Source: a virus
Reading direction: 5' to 3' (one strand)
DNA: 64,000 nt
IMG/VR virus record: IMGVR_UViG_3300046171_000182
Location: 62,001-126,000 of that record
Program-made: the position numbers and the translations under genes
The notes under the pieces: model-generated
Databases searched by the model: none
What the model was told of the DNA's origin: nothing
What the model saw: the letters and a program-made list of their open reading frames with translations, nothing else
Shown: piece after piece, positions 15,768 through 24,552 of the stretch
Layout of the letters: every line of letters starts with the position of its first letter
Numbering within the stretch: position 1 is the first letter of the stretch

Positions 15768-15775
15768 TATAAATA
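15768..15775 (+). promoter_or_regulatory. T4-type late promoter TATAAATA
   Basis: Exact late element 24 nt before the ATG at 15799, immediately after a terminator. Confidence 0.78.
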
Positions 15776-15798: not shown

Positions 15799-17172
15799 AT
15801 GGCTACGTTTGCAAAAATGTCTAGGGCGGAATGGGGTAAACCTGTTAGCGGATCAAGAGAAAGCAGAGTCGACGTCTTTATTGATGCAATAAAGGCTGGA
15901 GATCCCGTAAGCGATATTGAAGGAAAAGACGTTCATATTGCTAATACACAAAAAAATATAGATGCAATAAAAAAATACGTATCTGATTCTACATCAGGTT
16001 CAACTACAACCTTTGATTTAAAATCTGGAGGTACAATAGTTTCGAATCAGATTGGTAAATCTCCATTGTTTGGAGGTCAAGGCGCAGGAGCAGGAGCAAC
16101 TGGAGAGACTGCAAAGTTTGAATCATTACAATGTTTGTATATTGCTGCAGTGCTAGGCGAAGGCTCGACACACGAATTTTCACACTATACGATAGAAACT
16201 TTAAAAAAATATAAAGATAAAGTATTTGTAAGTGAACCTTTTGATACGTATGTAGCTATTGATGGATCATGGCATATATCTGGATTTAAAATAGCCAAGA
16301 AATTAATTAAAGCAGGATACGTAACTACAAGACATACATTGCACCGTGGCGATAAAAAAATGGATTCGTTGTATGCATTAAAAAATAAATTACGTAAAGC
16401 TGAAGGTTTGCCTGCTATTAATCATGATAAATGGAATCCAGGTGATATATGGGCCATGAAAGATCAAGCAACACTATCTGTTAAATTAAATAAGATAAAA
16501 ACATTTGGAGAACTAAACGAATTCATTGTTAATAATTTTATGAGTAGAAACGTGATCGGAATCTCTCTTAAAAAAGTAAAAGACAGAGAAACCGTTAAGC
16601 TCACTGATTACAACGTAGAACAAAAAGCTTTGGATAAACACAAGTTTACAAAAGTTACATTAGAAACTGCTGCGGGTAAAGGCGTATTCTCATCTAAAAA
16701 TGGAATGTTTTTCTTTGATACAATAAGTAAAGCAGATATACGTGCACCAAACTCTTTTGGTGCTTTAAATATGGAACTACAAGGTAAGGGAGCTCGAGGT
16801 GGTAGAACTGGATATGCACAAATAGTATATTCGGCTGCGGCACATTTAAACAAGACAATGCCTACAAATAAACAACTTGTAAGTCAGGCAAGAATATTAG
16901 CAGCTCCAAATCCTTCAAAAAGTAATAAAGATAGTTTTTATAACCTAGTAAAAGAAGTAAACCCTGAAATTGATAGAGCAACATTTGAGGATGGGCTATC
17001 ATCTAAGAAAGGTCAAGCGCATTTTATACACCCATTATTGGGAGCTGCACATCTTGGTGCAGCACTTATGAAAGCAAACACAAGCCAGCGGAATAGCTTT
17101 ACATCCGAAATAGTAAATGTTATGGGAGCCAAAACAAACGATTCGTCGGCCTATACAAAGGCATCAGCATAG
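15799..17172 (+). CDS. Late-expressed 457-aa protein, possible virion or nuclease-fold protein
   Basis: The gene is preceded by TATAAATA and TTGGAGT, so it is a late gene. A Gly/Ala-rich segment (GGQGAGAGATGET, near residue 100) precedes a globular part with KWNPGDIWAM and, about 40 residues on, NVIGISLKKV. The D-I-W and S-L-K-K pair is reminiscent of PD-(D/E)xK-like folds in uncharacterised phage proteins, but this is a weak hint. The C-terminal part is Ala-rich (LLGAAHLGAALMK). I do not recognise a named family. Confidence 0.6.
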   Translation: MATFAKMSRAEWGKPVSGSRESRVDVFIDAIKAGDPVSDIEGKDVHIANTQKNIDAIKKYVSDSTSGSTTTFDLKSGGTIVSNQIGKSPLFGGQGAGAGATGETAKFESLQCLYIAAVLGEGSTHEFSHYTIETLKKYKDKVFVSEPFDTYVAIDGSWHISGFKIAKKLIKAGYVTTRHTLHRGDKKMDSLYALKNKLRKAEGLPAINHDKWNPGDIWAMKDQATLSVKLNKIKTFGELNEFIVNNFMSRNVIGISLKKVKDRETVKLTDYNVEQKALDKHKFTKVTLETAAGKGVFSSKNGMFFFDTISKADIRAPNSFGALNMELQGKGARGGRTGYAQIVYSAAAHLNKTMPTNKQLVSQARILAAPNPSKSNKDSFYNLVKEVNPEIDRATFEDGLSSKKGQAHFIHPLLGAAHLGAALMKANTSQRNSFTSEIVNVMGAKTNDSSAYTKASA

Positions 17173-17183
17173 AGGATAATAAT

Positions 17184-17771
17184 ATGATATGGATAAGTGA
17201 ATATGAACATATAGAAGAACATGATTTAAATATTGATGTTGATCGCCTATATATGGATTATATTAGATTTACAAAAGAACATGAACATGTAACAGATGAT
17301 GCACGCAATATTGATTTTAATGCAGTATGCGTCAATAGAATACCTGGTGATCCTAACTCGGTCACTGGTGGAAATGTCAGAGGTAAGTACTGGACTTATC
17401 CAACTGACGAAGATAAAGAAGAAGAACGTCTGCCATACGTAGATGAAGCTGCATACACTGAAATTTGTCCGGAATTTGAGGACACATATACTGAAGAAGT
17501 ATTTAGTTTATTAAGTTTAAAGTGGAATATTGGTAGACTCAGGTTCTTGATGAAACCCCCCAGATCGTGCCTGTCTTGGCATAGAGATCCAGAGCGGAGA
17601 ATCCATATTCCACTTTACACCAATAAAGGTTGTAGAATGATTATTGAAGATCGTGCGTATTATATGCGTGCAGATGGTACAGTTTACATTACAGATAATA
17701 CTGTATATCATAACTTCTTTAATGGCGGTGAGGAAAATAGAGTACATTTAGTCGCAACAAAATTAGAATAA
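17184..17771 (+). CDS. Aspartyl/asparaginyl beta-hydroxylase-like 2OG oxygenase
   Basis: 195 residues. The C-terminal half carries LSWHRDPERRIHIPLY (H133, D135), a distal YHNFFNG histidine near residue 176, and NRVHLVA with the 2-oxoglutarate arginine. This is the best-preserved member of the phage hydroxylase group also seen at 3671 and 9548. The acidic N-terminal half (DEDKEEERLPYVDEA) may bind the target. It would hydroxylate Asp/Asn or another side chain in the cytoplasm; the target is unknown. Confidence 0.75.
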   Translation: MIWISEYEHIEEHDLNIDVDRLYMDYIRFTKEHEHVTDDARNIDFNAVCVNRIPGDPNSVTGGNVRGKYWTYPTDEDKEEERLPYVDEAAYTEICPEFEDTYTEEVFSLLSLKWNIGRLRFLMKPPRSCLSWHRDPERRIHIPLYTNKGCRMIIEDRAYYMRADGTVYITDNTVYHNFFNGGEENRVHLVATKLE

Positions 17772-17809: not shown

Positions 17810-19039
17810 ATGGAAAATTTTAAAACACATATAACTGAAAATAAAAACACGCATATGACTCATATCGAAGATAAGGTTATATATGGTGGTGTTAAGGGAA
17901 CACGAAATGCTATTATGGCCTTACGTTCTTTACGAGATATGTTGAAAGGCGAACACGATGGAAACGTATCTGTTAAATGGGATGGTGCTCCTGCTATATT
18001 TGCTGGTATTGATCCTGGTGATGGAAGATTCTTCGTGGCAAAAAAAGGAATCTTTAATAAGAATCCCAAAGTTTATAAAACTCCTGCTGATGTTGATGCT
18101 GACACTAGCGGCGATCTTGCTGATAAGCTTAAAACCGCTTTGTCAGAACTCCCTGCCTTGGGTATCAAAGGTGTCGTGCAAGGCGATTTCTTATATGGAC
18201 CAGGCGATGTAAAAACTAAAAAGATTGCTGGTGACTCTTATGTTACATTTCATCCTAATACTATAGTCTATGCAGTGCCAAGTAACTCAGCTGCAGCTGC
18301 AGAGATTAAGAAATCTAAAATAGGAATTGTATGGCATACTACATACACTGGTAAAACATTTGAAACTATGAGAGCGTCATATGGTGTAAATGTTTCGAAA
18401 CTAAAAAAATCTAAAGGCGTGTGGTCGCAAGATGCAATGCTTAGAGATTTAACCAATATAACTATGAGCAAACGTGATACGGAGGAAGTCAATGAATATC
18501 TTTCACAAGCTGGTAAAATCTTTAACAAAATCTCAGGAACAACCCTCAGGGAGCTCGAAAAACAGGAAGAGTTACAGAGGCTCATTGAAACGTACAACAA
18601 CTCCTTTGTTAGATCGGGTACAGTCATTGGAAATACAAGAGGACATGTATCTGGGCTCATTCGCTTCGTCACGCAAAGATACAAAAAAGAAATAGATAAG
18701 CGCAAAACCGAAAAAGGTAAAGGTGCACAGCAGCAAAAATTAGATACAATATTGTCATTCTTTAGTATACAAAACAAAAAAAGTTTAGAACAGATGTTTG
18801 AACTGCAAAAAGTTATAGTTTTGGCAAAATTAAAACTTATAAATATACTTAATAAGCTAGCGAAGGTGAAGACCTTCGTAAAGACTCATAATGGATACAA
18901 GGTAACTGGAGAAGAAGGTTACGTTGCAATTGATAAACTTGGTGGTGATGCTGTTAAGATTGTTGATCGAATGGAATTTTCGTACAACAACTTCAGCAAA
19001 GATATATTAAAGGGATGGGATAAACCAACGAGGAAGTAA
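17810..19039 (+). CDS. Candidate internal head protein with ligase-like nucleotidyltransferase motifs
   Basis: 409 residues, N-terminus MENFKTHITENK matching the shared capsid-targeting-like pattern of this operon. Residues 54-60 read SVKWDGA: KxDG is motif I of covalent nucleotidyltransferases (DNA/RNA ligases, capping enzymes), with K56 the candidate AMP-accepting lysine. RFFVAKKG (74-80) and GVVQGDFLYG (121-130) sit where ligase motifs III-IV are expected, then IGIVWHTTY. Family is probably DUF6267-like. The C-terminal half is helical and basic. If packaged, it could act on DNA or RNA on entry. Activity is inference. Confidence 0.65.
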   Translation: MENFKTHITENKNTHMTHIEDKVIYGGVKGTRNAIMALRSLRDMLKGEHDGNVSVKWDGAPAIFAGIDPGDGRFFVAKKGIFNKNPKVYKTPADVDADTSGDLADKLKTALSELPALGIKGVVQGDFLYGPGDVKTKKIAGDSYVTFHPNTIVYAVPSNSAAAAEIKKSKIGIVWHTTYTGKTFETMRASYGVNVSKLKKSKGVWSQDAMLRDLTNITMSKRDTEEVNEYLSQAGKIFNKISGTTLRELEKQEELQRLIETYNNSFVRSGTVIGNTRGHVSGLIRFVTQRYKKEIDKRKTEKGKGAQQQKLDTILSFFSIQNKKSLEQMFELQKVIVLAKLKLINILNKLAKVKTFVKTHNGYKVTGEEGYVAIDKLGGDAVKIVDRMEFSYNNFSKDILKGWDKPTRK

Positions 19040-19573
19040 ATGTATAGTTTTAAAGAACTAATGATATTGCCTGTTGAACCAGGCGAAGACGAGTACTTAA
19101 AGTACCGTGCGATGAAACGTCGCAAGCATATGTATGAAGCTACGATTCCTAATGGCCAAACAGCTATGACGAAGAAGCCTGATCTTACCAATAAAGATAA
19201 GAAAACTATGGGTAAGATTGCAGATCTCATGAAGCGTGCTAATGAGGACAATGAAGAATCTACAGACGAAGCGCTATCAATGGCGGCTCGTCGTAAGCGT
19301 TCTCGCGATATGCGAAAAAATAAAAACAAATTAAGAATTGCTAGAAACCGCATGAAGAACCGTGTTGCTAATCCTGAGCGGATTAAGAAACGTGCGAAAA
19401 AGCAGGCAATAGATAAAATATATAAAAAGTTGACAAAAGGTATGTCAAGAAAAGATTTAACTCCTGCTAAAAAGGCTGAGCTTGAAAAACGTATTAGTAA
19501 AATGAAACCAAGAGTAAATCGCATAGCAAAAAAGCTTTTGCCATCAGTAAGAAGAGCTGCACACGGAAAATGA
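19040..19573 (+). CDS. Basic head-associated protein with capsid-targeting-like N-terminus
   Basis: 177 residues, starting MYSFKELMILPVEPGE. After an acidic linker the protein is extremely Lys/Arg-rich: MAARRKRSRDMRKNKNK, then RMKNRVANPERIKKRAKK and a C-terminal IAKKLLPSVRRA. The pattern is common in T4-like phages near structural genes. It probably binds packaged DNA, like T4 internal proteins. It abuts its upstream neighbour without a gap. Confidence 0.65.
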   Translation: MYSFKELMILPVEPGEDEYLKYRAMKRRKHMYEATIPNGQTAMTKKPDLTNKDKKTMGKIADLMKRANEDNEESTDEALSMAARRKRSRDMRKNKNKLRIARNRMKNRVANPERIKKRAKKQAIDKIYKKLTKGMSRKDLTPAKKAELEKRISKMKPRVNRIAKKLLPSVRRAAHGK

Positions 19574-20700
19574 TAAATCGGTTTAGTGAATACTTAGTAG
19601 AAGAAGAAAAAATTGGTTATTTGGTCTTTGGCCGAATGAATCCTCCTACTATTGGACATGGTAAATTATTAGATAAGCTCGCCACAACAGCTGGCCGAGC
19701 ACCTTATCGTATCTATCTGTCGCAGTCAAACGATCAAAAAGATAATCCTCTTACGTATTCTGACAAAGTAAAGTATGCACGTAAGATGTTTCCTCGTCAC
19801 GCAAGATCAATTATTATTGATAAAAAAGTCGTAACGCCCTTCCATGCACTATCTGCAATGTATAGTGCAGGATTTAAAAAGGTTATATTAGTTGCAGGAT
19901 CTGATCGTGTAAAAGAATATGACTTGCGTCTAAATAAATATAATGGAAAAAAGGGTACTCATGGATTTTATAACTTTGATGGTGGTGTAAAAGTTGTTAG
20001 TGCAGGCCAAAGAGATCCTGATGGAAAAGGTGCAGAAGGCGCATCTGGTACAAAGCAAAGAGGTTATGCAAAGAATAACGACTTTACTGGATTTGCACAA
20101 GGATTATCTAAAGCTATATCAAACCCTGATGCGAAGAAGATGTTCAACGCTGTACGCAATGGTATGGGGTTAAAAGAAGAGAATGAATTTAAAAGACATA
20201 TTCAACTTAAAACCGTATCAGAAACTAGAGAAGCTTTTATTAAAGGTGAGCTCTTTGAACTCGGGGAACAAGTCATTGTCAAGAAAACATCTGAGGTTGG
20301 TAAAATCACACTCATCGGATCGAACTACGTCATTGTAGAAACTTCTGATAAGACTACGAGACAGTGGTTAGATGCTGTTGAGAAGATTGTAGAAGAAGCA
20401 AAGTATGATTATGGAACTGATGCATCAGTAAAGTATATGAAAAAGACTACACCTGGACAGAATGAGAGCACACCTCAAGATTCTGACATTAAGGATCGTG
20501 AAGGATCGCAGCCTAAAGCGTATCATAAAGGCCTAAAGAAAGCTACAAAGGTAGCAAGAGATCGGCACTTTAAGAAACATGGTAAAAAAGCAGATAACGA
20601 TCCTAGTGCATATAAACCAGCACCAGGTGATAAAAAGAATAAAGGTAAAACTAAACAATCGACTTGGACTACTAAGTTTAAGCAGATGTATGGGGATTAA
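19570..20700 (+). CDS. Cytidylyltransferase/NMNAT-like protein with capsid-targeting-like N-terminus
   Basis: 376 residues. MINRFSEYLVEEEK precedes the nucleotidyltransferase motif GRMNPPTIGH (21-30, the (H/T)xGH site), LVAGSDRVKEYD and other Rossmann elements up to about residue 200. A linker and a basic C-terminal module follow (ARDRHFKKHGKK, DPSAYKPAPGDK, FKQMYGD). The enzyme class adenylates or cytidylates a phosphorylated substrate, for example NMN to NAD. The position in the cargo operon suggests delivery with the DNA. The substrate is not readable. Confidence 0.7.
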   Translation: MINRFSEYLVEEEKIGYLVFGRMNPPTIGHGKLLDKLATTAGRAPYRIYLSQSNDQKDNPLTYSDKVKYARKMFPRHARSIIIDKKVVTPFHALSAMYSAGFKKVILVAGSDRVKEYDLRLNKYNGKKGTHGFYNFDGGVKVVSAGQRDPDGKGAEGASGTKQRGYAKNNDFTGFAQGLSKAISNPDAKKMFNAVRNGMGLKEENEFKRHIQLKTVSETREAFIKGELFELGEQVIVKKTSEVGKITLIGSNYVIVETSDKTTRQWLDAVEKIVEEAKYDYGTDASVKYMKKTTPGQNESTPQDSDIKDREGSQPKAYHKGLKKATKVARDRHFKKHGKKADNDPSAYKPAPGDKKNKGKTKQSTWTTKFKQMYGD

Positions 20701-20940
20701 ATGATAAACTTCAAAGAATATATCACAGAAGATAAAGCAGGTAGCTCACTTGCCGATAAATCTAAAAAGTCAGGTATCTCTACAGGTACTTTGCGTAAAG
20801 TATTTAATCGTGGCGTTGCTGCATGGAAAACCGGTCACAGACCTGGCACCACGCCAACTCAGTGGGGACATGCACGAGTCAATGCTTTTATTGTCAAAAA
20901 GAAAAAAGGTGGGCTTAACCATGATAAGGACCTAGCATAA
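20701..20940 (+). CDS. DUF5824-like small protein with capsid-targeting-like N-terminus
   Basis: 79 residues. MINFKEYITEDK is followed by GISTGTLRKVFNRGVAAWKTGHRPGTTP-type sequence, the conserved core of DUF5824-like phage proteins, and a basic tail. The core resembles a small helix-turn-helix fold with a Trp-rich loop. It abuts the upstream gene directly. Confidence 0.62.
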   Translation: MINFKEYITEDKAGSSLADKSKKSGISTGTLRKVFNRGVAAWKTGHRPGTTPTQWGHARVNAFIVKKKKGGLNHDKDLA

Positions 20941-21287
20941 TGAAATCTTTTATTCAAATAAGGCAGGAACTAAATGAATCTCCTTACGGTGATCCATATA
21001 GAACTGTTCAACGAACAAAAGATGCTATGTCTAGTCATACTGCTGCTATAAAAAAACATGATACAGCTATGCAATCTCATATAAACAAAGCTAATGCTGC
21101 AGAGAAAAAGGGTTTAAATACCAAAGCTGATAACCATAGAGAAGCTGCTAATGCACACCACCTTGGAAAAGAAGATCACGATCACGCTAAAAGCTTATTA
21201 AAAAAACATGGACCAGATCATAATGGATATGAATCAGCTGCAAAAAGTGCACATTCAAGTTCAGATCGTATTCATAAAGATAACTAG
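20940..21287 (+). CDS. His-rich coiled candidate internal protein
   Basis: 115 residues. The N-terminus MKSFIQIRQELNESPYG contains LNE, a site of the T4 gp21 protease type (L/I-x-E). The rest is a low-complexity helical Ala/His/Lys sequence (HINKANAAEKKG, HREAANAHHLGKEDHDHA), which may bind metal or DNA. Coupled to the upstream gene (TAATG). Confidence 0.58.
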   Translation: MKSFIQIRQELNESPYGDPYRTVQRTKDAMSSHTAAIKKHDTAMQSHINKANAAEKKGLNTKADNHREAANAHHLGKEDHDHAKSLLKKHGPDHNGYESAAKSAHSSSDRIHKDN

Positions 21288-21296
21288 GGGTTAAAA

Positions 21297-22628
21297 ATGA
21301 AAACATTTAAAGAAATAAGTGAAGCCTCAGGCGTTTCATCAAGCGGTGCACAGCACATGCTTAGTAATGATGCTGAGAAAAAAGCACATTCAGCTCTCAT
21401 GCAAAAGAAGCATGGCGTTAAAACAACTTATCATGGCAGCGATGAACTAAAATATCACGGTTCTCAAAAGAATGTAAAGAAAGCTCTTGGTACTCATTAT
21501 GGCGGTGATCATGATCATGCAAAAGATGATCATCCACACATTTATAAAGAAAACGTCAAAACCGCTGATAGAAAACCTGAAATCTATACAAAGCCTGATG
21601 GAAAAAAGGGTACACGTATGGTGCCTATGGATAGAGAAGTTATCAAGAAGGAAAAAACTCTTGAATGGCTAAAGGCATCTCTTGCAAGAGAAGCTGCAAA
21701 AGTTAAACCACGTCAAGATGACATGGAAGAAGCTTACGAAAACACAATGTACTGTAAAAAGTGTGGGTGTGAAAGAGGTAATCCAGATCCTGACTGTTCA
21801 TGCAAAATGGAAAACGCTTCATTGACAGATGCACAATGTTATTCAGAACAATCTAAATGTGGATCTTTACGTAAAGAAGACGTTAACGAGCTAACAATTG
21901 CTGATGTCCAAAAGGCTACTGCGATGGCAAAGAAACGTCAAGCAAAAGAACGTGAAGCCGGAAAGAAAAGTGTATCAACCACTGATCTTGGAGCACGTAT
22001 GCCTAAAAAAGAAACATTTGAGCCTCATATGATGTATGATCCAAAAACAGGCAAAGGCTATAAAGCTGAAAAAGAAGCCGATCACCTTCGAATGAAGAAG
22101 ATGGGATACACTCACGACAAACCTAAAAACGAAGGCGTTAAAACATTTGCCGAGATCTCAAAAGGTATGGCAGGCCGTTATATCAAAAAGGCACAAGTAA
22201 GTACAGCAGATGCTGCAAAGAGTACTGAGCGTGGATACGTTGACTCACGCTCGCCTGATCGTGGTATTGCTACAGCAGGAAAAGCTCAGACTAGAAAAGG
22301 CATTAAGACATTTATTAATCGCAATAAGGGTACATCTACTGCTGTTAATAAATTAACTGGTAAAGCTAAAGTACCTGCAAGAGAAAGTAAAGGCATTGAC
22401 GCAATGAAGAAGGCTGGTAATGCTAAAGCTGATGCTGAAGCAGCCGACCGTAAGAAAATGAAAAACGAAATTTCAAATAATAAGATGGGCCAATACGTAC
22501 GTAAAGCTGGCGCCGATATTGCAAAAAAGGCCGGAGCTGGAGATACCGATAAAGCTAAAGCAAGAGTAAAAGGCGTATCTAAAGCTATGGATAAGATGGA
22601 CAAGAACAGATTGTTTGGAAGGCAGTAA
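21297..22628 (+). CDS. Large basic candidate internal protein with repeated targeting-like motif
   Basis: 443 residues. N-terminus MKTFKEISEAS, and the same pattern recurs at residue 281 (VKTFAEISKG), suggesting fusion of two cargo genes. In between lies a Cys cluster (YCKKCGCERG, CSCK, later QCYSEQSKCG), a possible zinc site. The second half holds two (M)xxY(I/V)xKA units (GRYIKKAQ, GQYVRKAG) separated by basic low-complexity sequence. Probably DNA-associated in the head. Confidence 0.6.
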   Translation: MKTFKEISEASGVSSSGAQHMLSNDAEKKAHSALMQKKHGVKTTYHGSDELKYHGSQKNVKKALGTHYGGDHDHAKDDHPHIYKENVKTADRKPEIYTKPDGKKGTRMVPMDREVIKKEKTLEWLKASLAREAAKVKPRQDDMEEAYENTMYCKKCGCERGNPDPDCSCKMENASLTDAQCYSEQSKCGSLRKEDVNELTIADVQKATAMAKKRQAKEREAGKKSVSTTDLGARMPKKETFEPHMMYDPKTGKGYKAEKEADHLRMKKMGYTHDKPKNEGVKTFAEISKGMAGRYIKKAQVSTADAAKSTERGYVDSRSPDRGIATAGKAQTRKGIKTFINRNKGTSTAVNKLTGKAKVPARESKGIDAMKKAGNAKADAEAADRKKMKNEISNNKMGQYVRKAGADIAKKAGAGDTDKAKARVKGVSKAMDKMDKNRLFGRQ

Positions 22629-23041
22629 TGACAACTACACGAGAGCTGTTAGCACAAATATATCAACATAGTCAAGTTGGAACTATGGAAGAAGCTAAAG
22701 ATCCTGGCGAATATGATCAGGAAGGTGGAATGGCTAAAGGTCAATTAAAAACAATGATTGATGCTGCTCAAGAGTTGCATGATATGCTAGGTGAAAATGA
22801 TAACCTTCCAGAATGGGTACAGTCAAAAATAACAAAGGCTACCGATTATATTGATTCAGTAAGAGATTATATGAAGAGCGAAGTATCTGAAGGTCCGGCA
22901 CGAGATCGTATTCTAAAGCAAATGGATAAAGCTAGTGGTAGAACACAAGCCGATCGTGAAGCTGATGCAAAGAAAGCTGCAGCACGACGTAAGGCTGCAG
23001 ATAAAGACTTAGCCGATTTTAGAAAGAAAATGGGATCATGA
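22628..23041 (+). CDS. Conserved T4-like marine phage protein in cargo operon
   Basis: 137 residues, TAATG coupling. The central EGGMAKGQLKTMIDAAQEL and LPEWVQSKITKATDYI segments are a helical domain that I associate with T4-like marine phages; function unknown. The N-terminus MTTTRELLAQIYQ matches the shared motif only weakly. The C-terminus is a basic Ala/Lys-rich coil. Confidence 0.6.
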   Translation: MTTTRELLAQIYQHSQVGTMEEAKDPGEYDQEGGMAKGQLKTMIDAAQELHDMLGENDNLPEWVQSKITKATDYIDSVRDYMKSEVSEGPARDRILKQMDKASGRTQADREADAKKAAARRKAADKDLADFRKKMGS

Positions 23042-23271
23042 TAAAGTTTAAGCAATTCATATCTGAAAAAAAATCAGAGTCTTGGGAAGCAGGATATAAA
23101 CGTAGAGTTGTGAAAACTACTGATGCCGATCATAAAGCCGATGGCTATAAATGGAGAATCAAAGGTAAAGAACGTCCTGAGATTTCTATTAAATTATATA
23201 AATCTAAACCAAATCAAGCTGAATTTAACAAGCAGATGAGACGAGTTGCGGGGCACGAGTTCGGTGGATAG
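23038..23271 (+). CDS. Small cargo-operon protein with capsid-targeting-like N-terminus
   Basis: 77 residues, ATGA overlap. MIKFKQFISEKK carries an I-S-E site of the protease type. The rest is basic (YKRRVVKTTDADHKADGYKW) and ends FNKQMRRVAGHEFGG. No further family recognised. Confidence 0.58.
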   Translation: MIKFKQFISEKKSESWEAGYKRRVVKTTDADHKADGYKWRIKGKERPEISIKLYKSKPNQAEFNKQMRRVAGHEFGG

Positions 23272-23554
23272 ATTTAAGACTTTCGCAGAAAAAGACTCAA
23301 AGGGTCATTTTCGTGCAACCGATAAGGGTGCCGGCATGACACAAAAAGGAGTCGATGCTGAGAATAGAAGAACTGGTGGTAACCTAAAGACTGCGGTTAC
23401 TACTAAACCTAGTAAGTTGAAGAAGGGATCCAAAGCTGCTAATAGGCGTAAATCATATTGCGCTCGAAGTGCAGGACAAATGAAAAAGTTTCCAGCTGCC
23501 GCTAAAGATCCTGATAGTAGACTTCGTCAAGCGAGGCGGAGGTGGAATTGTTAG
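23264..23554 (+). CDS. DUF6321-like protein, probable GTG start
   Basis: 96 residues from the GTG at 23264, which overlaps the previous stop and restores the operon's shared N-terminus (DRFKTFAEK). The body has GAGMTQKGVDAENRR, PSKLKKGSKAANRRKSYCARSAG and DPDSRLRQARRRWNC, the conserved core of a small Arg/Lys-rich phage family (DUF6321-like) with two conserved Cys. Probably nucleic-acid binding. Confidence 0.65.
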   Translation: MDRFKTFAEKDSKGHFRATDKGAGMTQKGVDAENRRTGGNLKTAVTTKPSKLKKGSKAANRRKSYCARSAGQMKKFPAAAKDPDSRLRQARRRWNC

Positions 23555-23593
23555 GCTATGCGGCAAACTCTAGAACTAACTACGGAATTGAAA

Positions 23594-23866
23594 ATGACTA
23601 CTAATGCTAGACTAGATAGAATTGAAGAGAAGCTCGATAACCTCACCGAGGCTATGATTGCTTTAGCGCGCGCTGAAGAAAAGATCGCCGGTATTAAAGA
23701 AGCCCAAGATAGCGGTTGGGAACGTATGAATCGATTTAGTGAAAAGTTAGATAGTATAGAGAGACAGGTGCAAGACAATGCACAGACTGTTAAAGTAATA
23801 AATAAACTATTCTGGGTAGCAGTTATAGCTGTGGCCGGATCAATCGCAGCCCAAATGTGGATGTAA
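23594..23866 (+). CDS. XhlA-like coiled-coil membrane protein
   Basis: 90 residues from the ATG at 23594. A heptad-patterned coiled coil (ARLDRIEEKLDNLTEAM, later RFSEKLDSIERQV) ends in one TM helix (LFWVAVIAVAGSIAAQMWM). This is the layout of XhlA/hemolysin-type phage proteins that accompany holins. A structural role in the virion is the alternative. Confidence 0.62.
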   Translation: MTTNARLDRIEEKLDNLTEAMIALARAEEKIAGIKEAQDSGWERMNRFSEKLDSIERQVQDNAQTVKVINKLFWVAVIAVAGSIAAQMWM

Positions 23867-23877
23867 AGGAAACTAAA

Positions 23878-24552
23878 ATGAAAACGCAAGACATAAGAAA
23901 TATGGGCCTCGCTTTGCAATCGGTCCAAGAGACATTTAACGATGCTCGCCCTGGAACTAAGCAGAATCAAAAAGATTTTGATAAGGCTTCTAAAATGGCA
24001 AAGCCAAAAAGCCAAGTATCTTTGAAACCTATGCCAACATCCTTAGCTAAGAAAATGGCTAAAGACGAAGGTGCTGACAGTTCACCAATGAAAAAAGAAG
24101 CATTGAAAGGTGATCAACATAAACTAGATCACGATAAAGATGGCGACATCGATGGTAAAGATTTTGCTATGCTTCGCAAAAAGAAAAAAGGCGAAAAGTC
24201 TGAAGTAAAACCACGTCAAGAACCTAATACCGAAAATGGAAAAGGTGATGCAGCAATGGAGAAGAAAGAATCTACTCGCTGGCCTGTATACGCTCGTATC
24301 ATGGAAAAGCAATCTCATACTGCAGGTGCTACAGCTCCTGAAGAAATGGATTCTAAGGATTCACCTTCTGCAAAGAAAATGAAAAAAGATCATAAGCCTG
24401 ACGTAAATGACATTGAAGCAAAAAGTCATCAAGATGCAGCAGATGCTGGTCGTAAAGGACCAGCTGCAAAAGCCCGCCCAAATGATAACATGAAAGGCGA
24501 TAAGAATATTGTAAACCCAGTAAAAGGAGCAGTGACAAGTGGCAGCAATTAG
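23878..24552 (+). CDS. Low-complexity protein with an EF-hand-like loop
   Basis: 224 residues, start MKTQDIRNMGLALQ. The middle has LDHDKDGDIDGKDFAML, an EF-hand/dockerin-type calcium loop with Asp at positions 1, 3 and 5. The rest is a hydrophilic Lys/Asp/Pro-rich chain without structure. It belongs to the late or virion-type block. A calcium-sensing role is inference from the loop. Confidence 0.55.
   Translation: MKTQDIRNMGLALQSVQETFNDARPGTKQNQKDFDKASKMAKPKSQVSLKPMPTSLAKKMAKDEGADSSPMKKEALKGDQHKLDHDKDGDIDGKDFAMLRKKKKGEKSEVKPRQEPNTENGKGDAAMEKKESTRWPVYARIMEKQSHTAGATAPEEMDSKDSPSAKKMKKDHKPDVNDIEAKSHQDAADAGRKGPAAKARPNDNMKGDKNIVNPVKGAVTSGSN

Follow-up and report, generated by a model that had tools for sequence, protein, structure and literature searches.

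Why should a row of otherwise unrelated proteins in a marine phage share the pattern of their first ten residues? The row lies in a window of 64,000 nucleotides (positions 62,001-126,000 of a 135,206-base IMG/VR virus contig, IMGVR_UViG_3300046171_000182, from a T4-like marine phage), and the original prediction had described it as an operon of at least eight proteins with a capsid-targeting-like N-terminus, a candidate set of injected cargo. We conclude, with a probability of roughly 0.84, that the row is a cargo operon in which a T4-type capsid-targeting sequence (CTS) serves as a portable address tag. The T4 internal proteins IPI, IPII and IPIII and the Alt protein (Mullaney & Black 1996, as reviewed in PMC9026906) carry the same leader of ~10 residues, with an aromatic residue at position 4, a hydrophobic one at position 7 and an I/L-x-E site ending at position 10. 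Genetic work on T4 has shown that residues 4 and 7 of the CTS direct targeting and that its residues 8 and 10 govern processing (PMC9026906).

All eight starts are real and head a tightly packed, co-directional gene row (Table 1; genes are named by their first position in the window). The motif M-x-x-F-x-x-(I/L/F/Y)-x-x-E, proposed for all of them, is exact in three (20701, 20940 and 23038) and not exact in the other five: 17810 (H at position 7), 19570 (shifted by one residue), 21297 and 23264 (both with E at position 9) are near variants, and 19040 is partial. An aromatic residue at position 4 and a hydrophobic residue at position 7 occur together in 20701, 23038, 20940, 21297, 23264 and, shifted by one, 19570. 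The I/L-x-E site ascribed to most of the proteins is found in 17810 (ITE), 19570 (LVE), 20701 (ITE), 21297 (ISE) and 23038 (ISE), is weak in 20940 and 23264, and is absent from 19040. The count of tagged starts is about six or seven clear ones plus one weak one, instead of eight.

As an outside yardstick, all 199 open reading frames (ORFs) of the contig were scored against the T4 CTS MKTYQEFIAE, which is not derived from the operon. The best five N-termini of the 199 all belong to the operon (23038, 20701, 22628, 21297 and 19570), so that across the 135-kb contig T4-CTS-like N-termini are concentrated there. Five ORFs scored at least 14; shuffling the N-termini gave an expectation of 0.55 such ORFs and never more than 3 across 300 shuffles. 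The high score of 22628 is probably due to chance, since its N-terminus contains no aromatic residue and no E. The bodies behind the tags are indeed otherwise unrelated: BLAST comparison among them gave no match better than E=0.1. Between row genes, the codons of the tag differ synonymously. Together, unrelated bodies and variable tag codons rule out a recent duplication of one leader DNA.

The tag recurs widely among relatives, which were defined as 80 loci around DUF6267, the family of 17810. Counting a family as tagged if the tag occurs in at least 30% of its members or in at least three, 18 protein families are tagged across these loci, with shares of 77/80 for DUF6267, 61/63 for the cytidylyltransferase (the family of 19570) and 29/40 for DUF5824. 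Tagged ORFs made up 241 of 1185 on the plus strand versus none of 183 on the minus strand. The search imposed F/Y at position 4 and E at position 10, a broad set at position 7 and nothing at position 8. Among the 167 distinct tags, information peaks at positions 4, 7, 8 and 10; F4 accounts for 95% (F/Y4 for 100%, as imposed), F/Y7 for 82% and I/L8 for 77%. Because I/L8, at one of the T4 processing residues, is enriched though not imposed, we read the E as a protease site. In the DUF6267 N-termini of 39 relatives, E10 is invariant and F4 exceeds 90%, while the adjoining positions vary. A second flavour of the tag, MKTFxxLRE with E at residue 9, is recurrent on several small basic proteins in the operons of loci L009-L083.

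Natural losses, fusions and swaps place the boundary of the tag at its glutamate. In S-SZBM1-type cyanophages all 80 DUF6267 proteins are untagged and start with M(A/S)KNTH, the residues that stand directly after E10 in the window protein; the neighbouring cytidylyltransferases are tagged in 70 of 70 cases. In one related locus (L022:8260) the body of 22628 directly follows MKTFKQLRE. In the window, the first half of DUF5824 closes the cytidylyltransferase ORF (19570) and the second half lies in the next tagged ORF (20701). In three loci (L026, L028 and L037) both of its parts lie in one ORF, fused to the tagged cytidylyltransferase with no tag at the junction, and the 29 tags among 40 noted above are DUF5824's own, carried where it is a separate ORF. 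Judged from these comparisons the tag is modular: unrelated bodies carry it, and where a body acquires or sheds the tag, the break falls cleanly at the E.

A tag profile was then compared with T4 and with published cyanophage virion proteomes. It was built only from relatives of the operon genes, with T4 excluded; its scores within the window are circular, as orthologues were used to build it, and were not used as evidence, whereas T4 and S-CREM2 provide independent tests. In T4 the profile placed ipIII first and ipII second of 251 ORFs and missed ipI and Alt. The tag is a precise rather than a sensitive marker of cargo. In S-CREM2, four ORFs exceeded the profile threshold and all had been detected by mass spectrometry (MS), compared with 0 of 146 undetected ORFs (Fisher p=0.004). 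The four are the cytidylyltransferase gp154 (MKNFSSFLTE), the kinase gp14 (MKRFDAFLTE), gp136 (MQTFSMFFSE) and the S-adenosylmethionine (SAM) hydrolase gp6 (MKDFDSFLEE); gp13, also detected, starts MKDLHSFLTE. With a plain BLOSUM score against the T4 CTS, MS-detected S-CREM2 proteins were not significantly enriched (p=0.13), because this score also rewards N-termini without E; the relatives-based profile did enrich them. A further MS-detected S-CREM2 protein, the Cas9-annotated gp12 (OR473000, 7704-10313, minus strand), has a CTG codon followed by RFASFMAE/A, at residues 18-25 (here and below a slash marks the putative cut); either its start is mis-annotated or its tag is slightly internal.

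The virion cytidylyltransferase of S-SM1 (MKKFSAFLNE) is the top profile match of its genome, and those of S-SZBM1 and S-SCSM1 start MRFRQFIIE and MKSFLQFLKE, respectively. A tagged cytidylyltransferase is a virion protein in S-CREM2, S-SCSM1, S-SZBM1 and S-SM1 (PMC10665884, PMC9602691, PMC9146016, PMC3037559). The S-SCSM1 cytidylyltransferase gene sits in a run of five consecutive genes (ORF89-93), each with a virion-protein annotation. The untagged DUF6267 protein of S-SZBM1 (397 aa) lies outside that phage's published virion list, and the untagged S-CREM2 gp87 was undetected by virion MS. The T4-like capsid-targeting reading of the original prediction is supported by the conservation of the T4-defined positions, the recovery of T4 ipIII and ipII by the profile and the tagged homologues in published virions.

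The genome also encodes the corresponding head genes. Portal, gp21-type protease, scaffold and major capsid protein of this T4-like contig are strong PHROG family matches (prohead protease, phrog_207, E=2e-75; scaffold, phrog_237), and gp21, gp22 and gp23 are all present. Its gp21 is 42% identical to T4 gp21 across the aligned core. The predicted gp23 cut site, LTE/A, aligns with LTE/A of T4, so the T4 site is kept, and it matches ITE, LVE and ISE in the cargo proteins. By DUF6267, the nearest named relative is phage C48C1 (Kyanoviridae), at 67% identity.

We propose that late in infection each tagged protein would be made with a leader of about ten residues, M-x-x-F-x-x-(F/Y)-(I/L)-x-E, which would dock it on the prohead scaffold core and so trap it inside the growing shell. 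Cleavage by the phage gp21 protease after the glutamate of I/L-x-E would then free the body, which would remain in the head alongside the DNA until, most likely, it enters the host at infection. Packaging is well supported by the identity of the tag, the virion link in relatives and the conservation of protease and substrate site; cutting in this phage and injection we infer by analogy with T4, and the role of each cargo we infer as well. On its sequence-defined features we class the row as T4-type CTS cargo, of which cutting and host entry would be part.

What might such cargo do? The label 'ligase-like' given to 17810 holds for its motifs and lacks a confirmed fold. K56-W-D-G59, Q124-G-D126, E369-G-x-V372 and K383-x-V-D-R are invariant in 46 DUF6267 sequences, down to 37% identity, and we take these to be motif I (KxDG) and the downstream motifs III, IV and V of the covalent nucleotidyltransferases (DNA/RNA ligases). 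A fold search with two AlphaFold models of DUF6267 yielded no significant structural match, and the label therefore stays motif-based; for one model (predicted local distance difference test score 76) the weak matches include two DNA ligases (probability 0.47 and 0.33), none with E<0.05. A sequence search of the PDB gave nothing useful. Both models give residues 1-17 confidence values under 50, which would fit a leader that can be removed.

The cytidylyltransferase-like assignment of 19570 was confirmed by its PHROG match (Table 1) and by the presence of NPPTIGH, a (T/S)xGH nucleotide-binding motif. Against Pfam PF01467 it scored 16.7 bits, below the cut-off of 21; the S-CREM2 homologue is above the cut-off. 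Several of the bodies (19040, 23264) are small; they are also very basic, as had been stated. The DNA binding ascribed to them is only part of our best guess for the cargo, namely early host manipulation by nucleotidyl-transfer enzymes and DNA-binding basic proteins. Beyond DUF6267, the cytidylyltransferase/DUF5824 and DUF6321, family scans gave no informative family for the row proteins. An NCBIfam scan returned only uninformative matches below cut-off, and PADLOC, run on ten proteins of the cargo row, matched none of them to a defence system.

Table 1. Features of the cargo row and its upstream region (window coordinates).
Feature	Position	Strand	Remarks
Late-promoter-like box TATAAATA	15768..15775	+	31 nt upstream of gene 15799; possible cargo-transcript start
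457-aa protein, phrog_1462	15799..17172	+	no clear tag in this copy
DUF6267 protein, tag MENFKTHITE (residues 1-10), ligase-type nucleotidyltransferase motifs	17810..19039	+	Pfam PF19782 E=9e-102
Very basic 177-aa protein	19040..19573	+	N-terminus MYSFKELMILPVE, partly CTS-like: F4 and L7 present, E10 missing
Cytidylyltransferase/NMNAT-like protein, tag MINRFSEYLVE, C-terminal N-half of DUF5824	19570..20700	+	phrog_3041 E=4e-65
C-half of DUF5824, tag MINFKEYITE	20701..20940	+	PF19141 E=5e-18
115-aa protein, CTS-like N-terminus MKSFIQIRQE	20940..21287	+	profile score 9.8
Basic 443-aa protein, CTS-like E9 variant MKTFKEISE	21297..22628	+	
137-aa protein without clear tag (MTTTRELLAQ)	22628..23041	+	
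77-aa basic protein, tag MIKFKQFISE	23038..23271	+	
DUF6321 basic domain, E9 variant MDRFKTFAE, GTG start	23264..23554	+	PF19846 E=2e-10

Upstream of the eight starts, 15799 is tagged in 11 of 22 relatives (for example MKSFKSFITE/ATMFGSMSRGEW), and its homologue in S-SCSM1 is ORF90 (E=2.5e-45), an annotated virion protein. A full tag is found in 6 of 67 relatives of 19040. The DUF6321 domain of 23264 also occurs in the S-CREM2 virion protein gp137. The box TATAAATA is also found 26-73 nt upstream of the gp67/21/22/23 row, the sheath gene and gp13 of this contig; its count across the window is at chance level, and only its placement is suggestive. An untagged aspartyl/asparaginyl beta-hydroxylase-like gene (17184-17771) lies between two of the cargo genes.

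Like the T4 internal proteins, the row combines unrelated bodies with a gp21-type prohead protease encoded in the same genome. Unlike in T4, the tagged proteins come from a co-directional operon and include enzyme-like ones (cytidylyltransferase, DUF6267), the residue that follows E varies, and family scans do not name the cytidylyltransferase, DUF6267, DUF5824 or DUF6321 as T4 internal proteins. With S-CREM2, S-SCSM1, S-SZBM1 and S-SM1 the row shares the cytidylyltransferase/NMNAT-like protein, whose homologues are found with neighbours in purified virions; in contrast to those reports, the tag is identified here, and on more families. The giant phages phiKZ and SPN3US likewise eject head proteins that a gp21-like protease has cut after x-E, but the propeptides of these proteins are much longer (up to >100 residues) and the SPN3US cleavage motif is A-x-E. 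The full-text literature, searched outside subscription papers, deals with the CTS in T4, in giant phages and in P1; no paper found there links a CTS to cyanophage or marine virion enzymes. In our view the mechanism is that of the T4 CTS, and what is new is a set of cargo rich in enzymes.

Several observations weigh against a tagged cargo operon. The residue after E varies here (N, D, E, K), where T4 and many cyanophages have Ala, and 19040 and 22628 lack a full tag in this phage. The S-CREM2 statistic is built on four proteins. S-SCSM1 ORF89, 90, 92 and 93 are called virion proteins yet have no canonical tag, which means that absence of the tag does not rule out packaging. The top profile match of S-SZBM1 (105 aa) is outside the MS list, although small proteins are easily missed. 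This ORF (NC_070839, 122311-122640, minus strand) has a textbook tag, MKSFKSFLSE/S, adjoins a DUF6321 homologue and is a candidate for a missed small cargo.

Among the alternatives, the one that fares best holds that the tagged proteins enter the prohead but stay there as core or DNA-condensing structural proteins and are not injected effectors. The small, very basic bodies of 19040 and 23264 would suit such a role, and T4 internal proteins are abundant core components. However, the cytidylyltransferase, the ligase-motif DUF6267 and the S-CREM2 SAM hydrolase and kinase are hard to explain as structure, and T4 is able to bring proteins fused to the CTS into cells (PMC9026906). We consider a purely structural role unlikely, if worth serious attention. 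It is quite improbable that virion detection reflects carry-over of abundant late proteins in caesium chloride (CsCl) preparations, with an unrelated, intracellular role for the tag. The S-CREM2 and S-SCSM1 authors themselves raised such carry-over, and some contamination may be present; the link between tag and detection in S-CREM2 argues against it, as do the recurrence of the cytidylyltransferase in four independent preparations and the failure of the untagged DUF6267 protein, from the same neighbourhood, and of tag-less gp87 to appear in their virion lists.

We give marginally less weight again to an N-terminus that docks on another phage structure, or acts as an uncut scaffold-binding peptide, with an E that is no protease site. 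This would accommodate the residues after E, which are not always small; set against it are the unimposed enrichment of I/L before x-E, matching the gp23 LTE conserved between this phage and T4, and tag-less homologues that begin exactly after E. Finally, although the motif is short and fits exactly in only three of the eight starts, a functionless chance or translation-start effect of an AT-rich genome is barely credible, as scoring against shuffles rejects chance similarity, independent T4-based scores cluster in one operon, F4 and E10 are conserved in 39 relatives while their neighbours vary, and the tag recurs in 18 families and predicts published virion proteins.

On a capsid-targeting reading, we lean slightly towards a broader view in which ocean T4-like phages share a standing, evolving arsenal of pre-made enzymes, each brought into the head by a clip-on ten-residue tag, so that the first ten residues predict injected effectors across a large marine phage group. 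If true, the arsenal would include proteins that act before phage gene expression, on host nucleotide and NAD metabolism, in DNA-end repair, or against defence, as with the SAM hydrolase. Cyanophage papers repeatedly report puzzling virion enzymes for which cargo and contamination could not be told apart, and a predictive tag would separate the two. For the many marine T4-like phages that are uncultured, the sequence would then reveal injected cargo, giving a concrete list, open to testing, of proteins that arrive in the host ahead of transcription, with cargo swapped by moving a ten-residue address.

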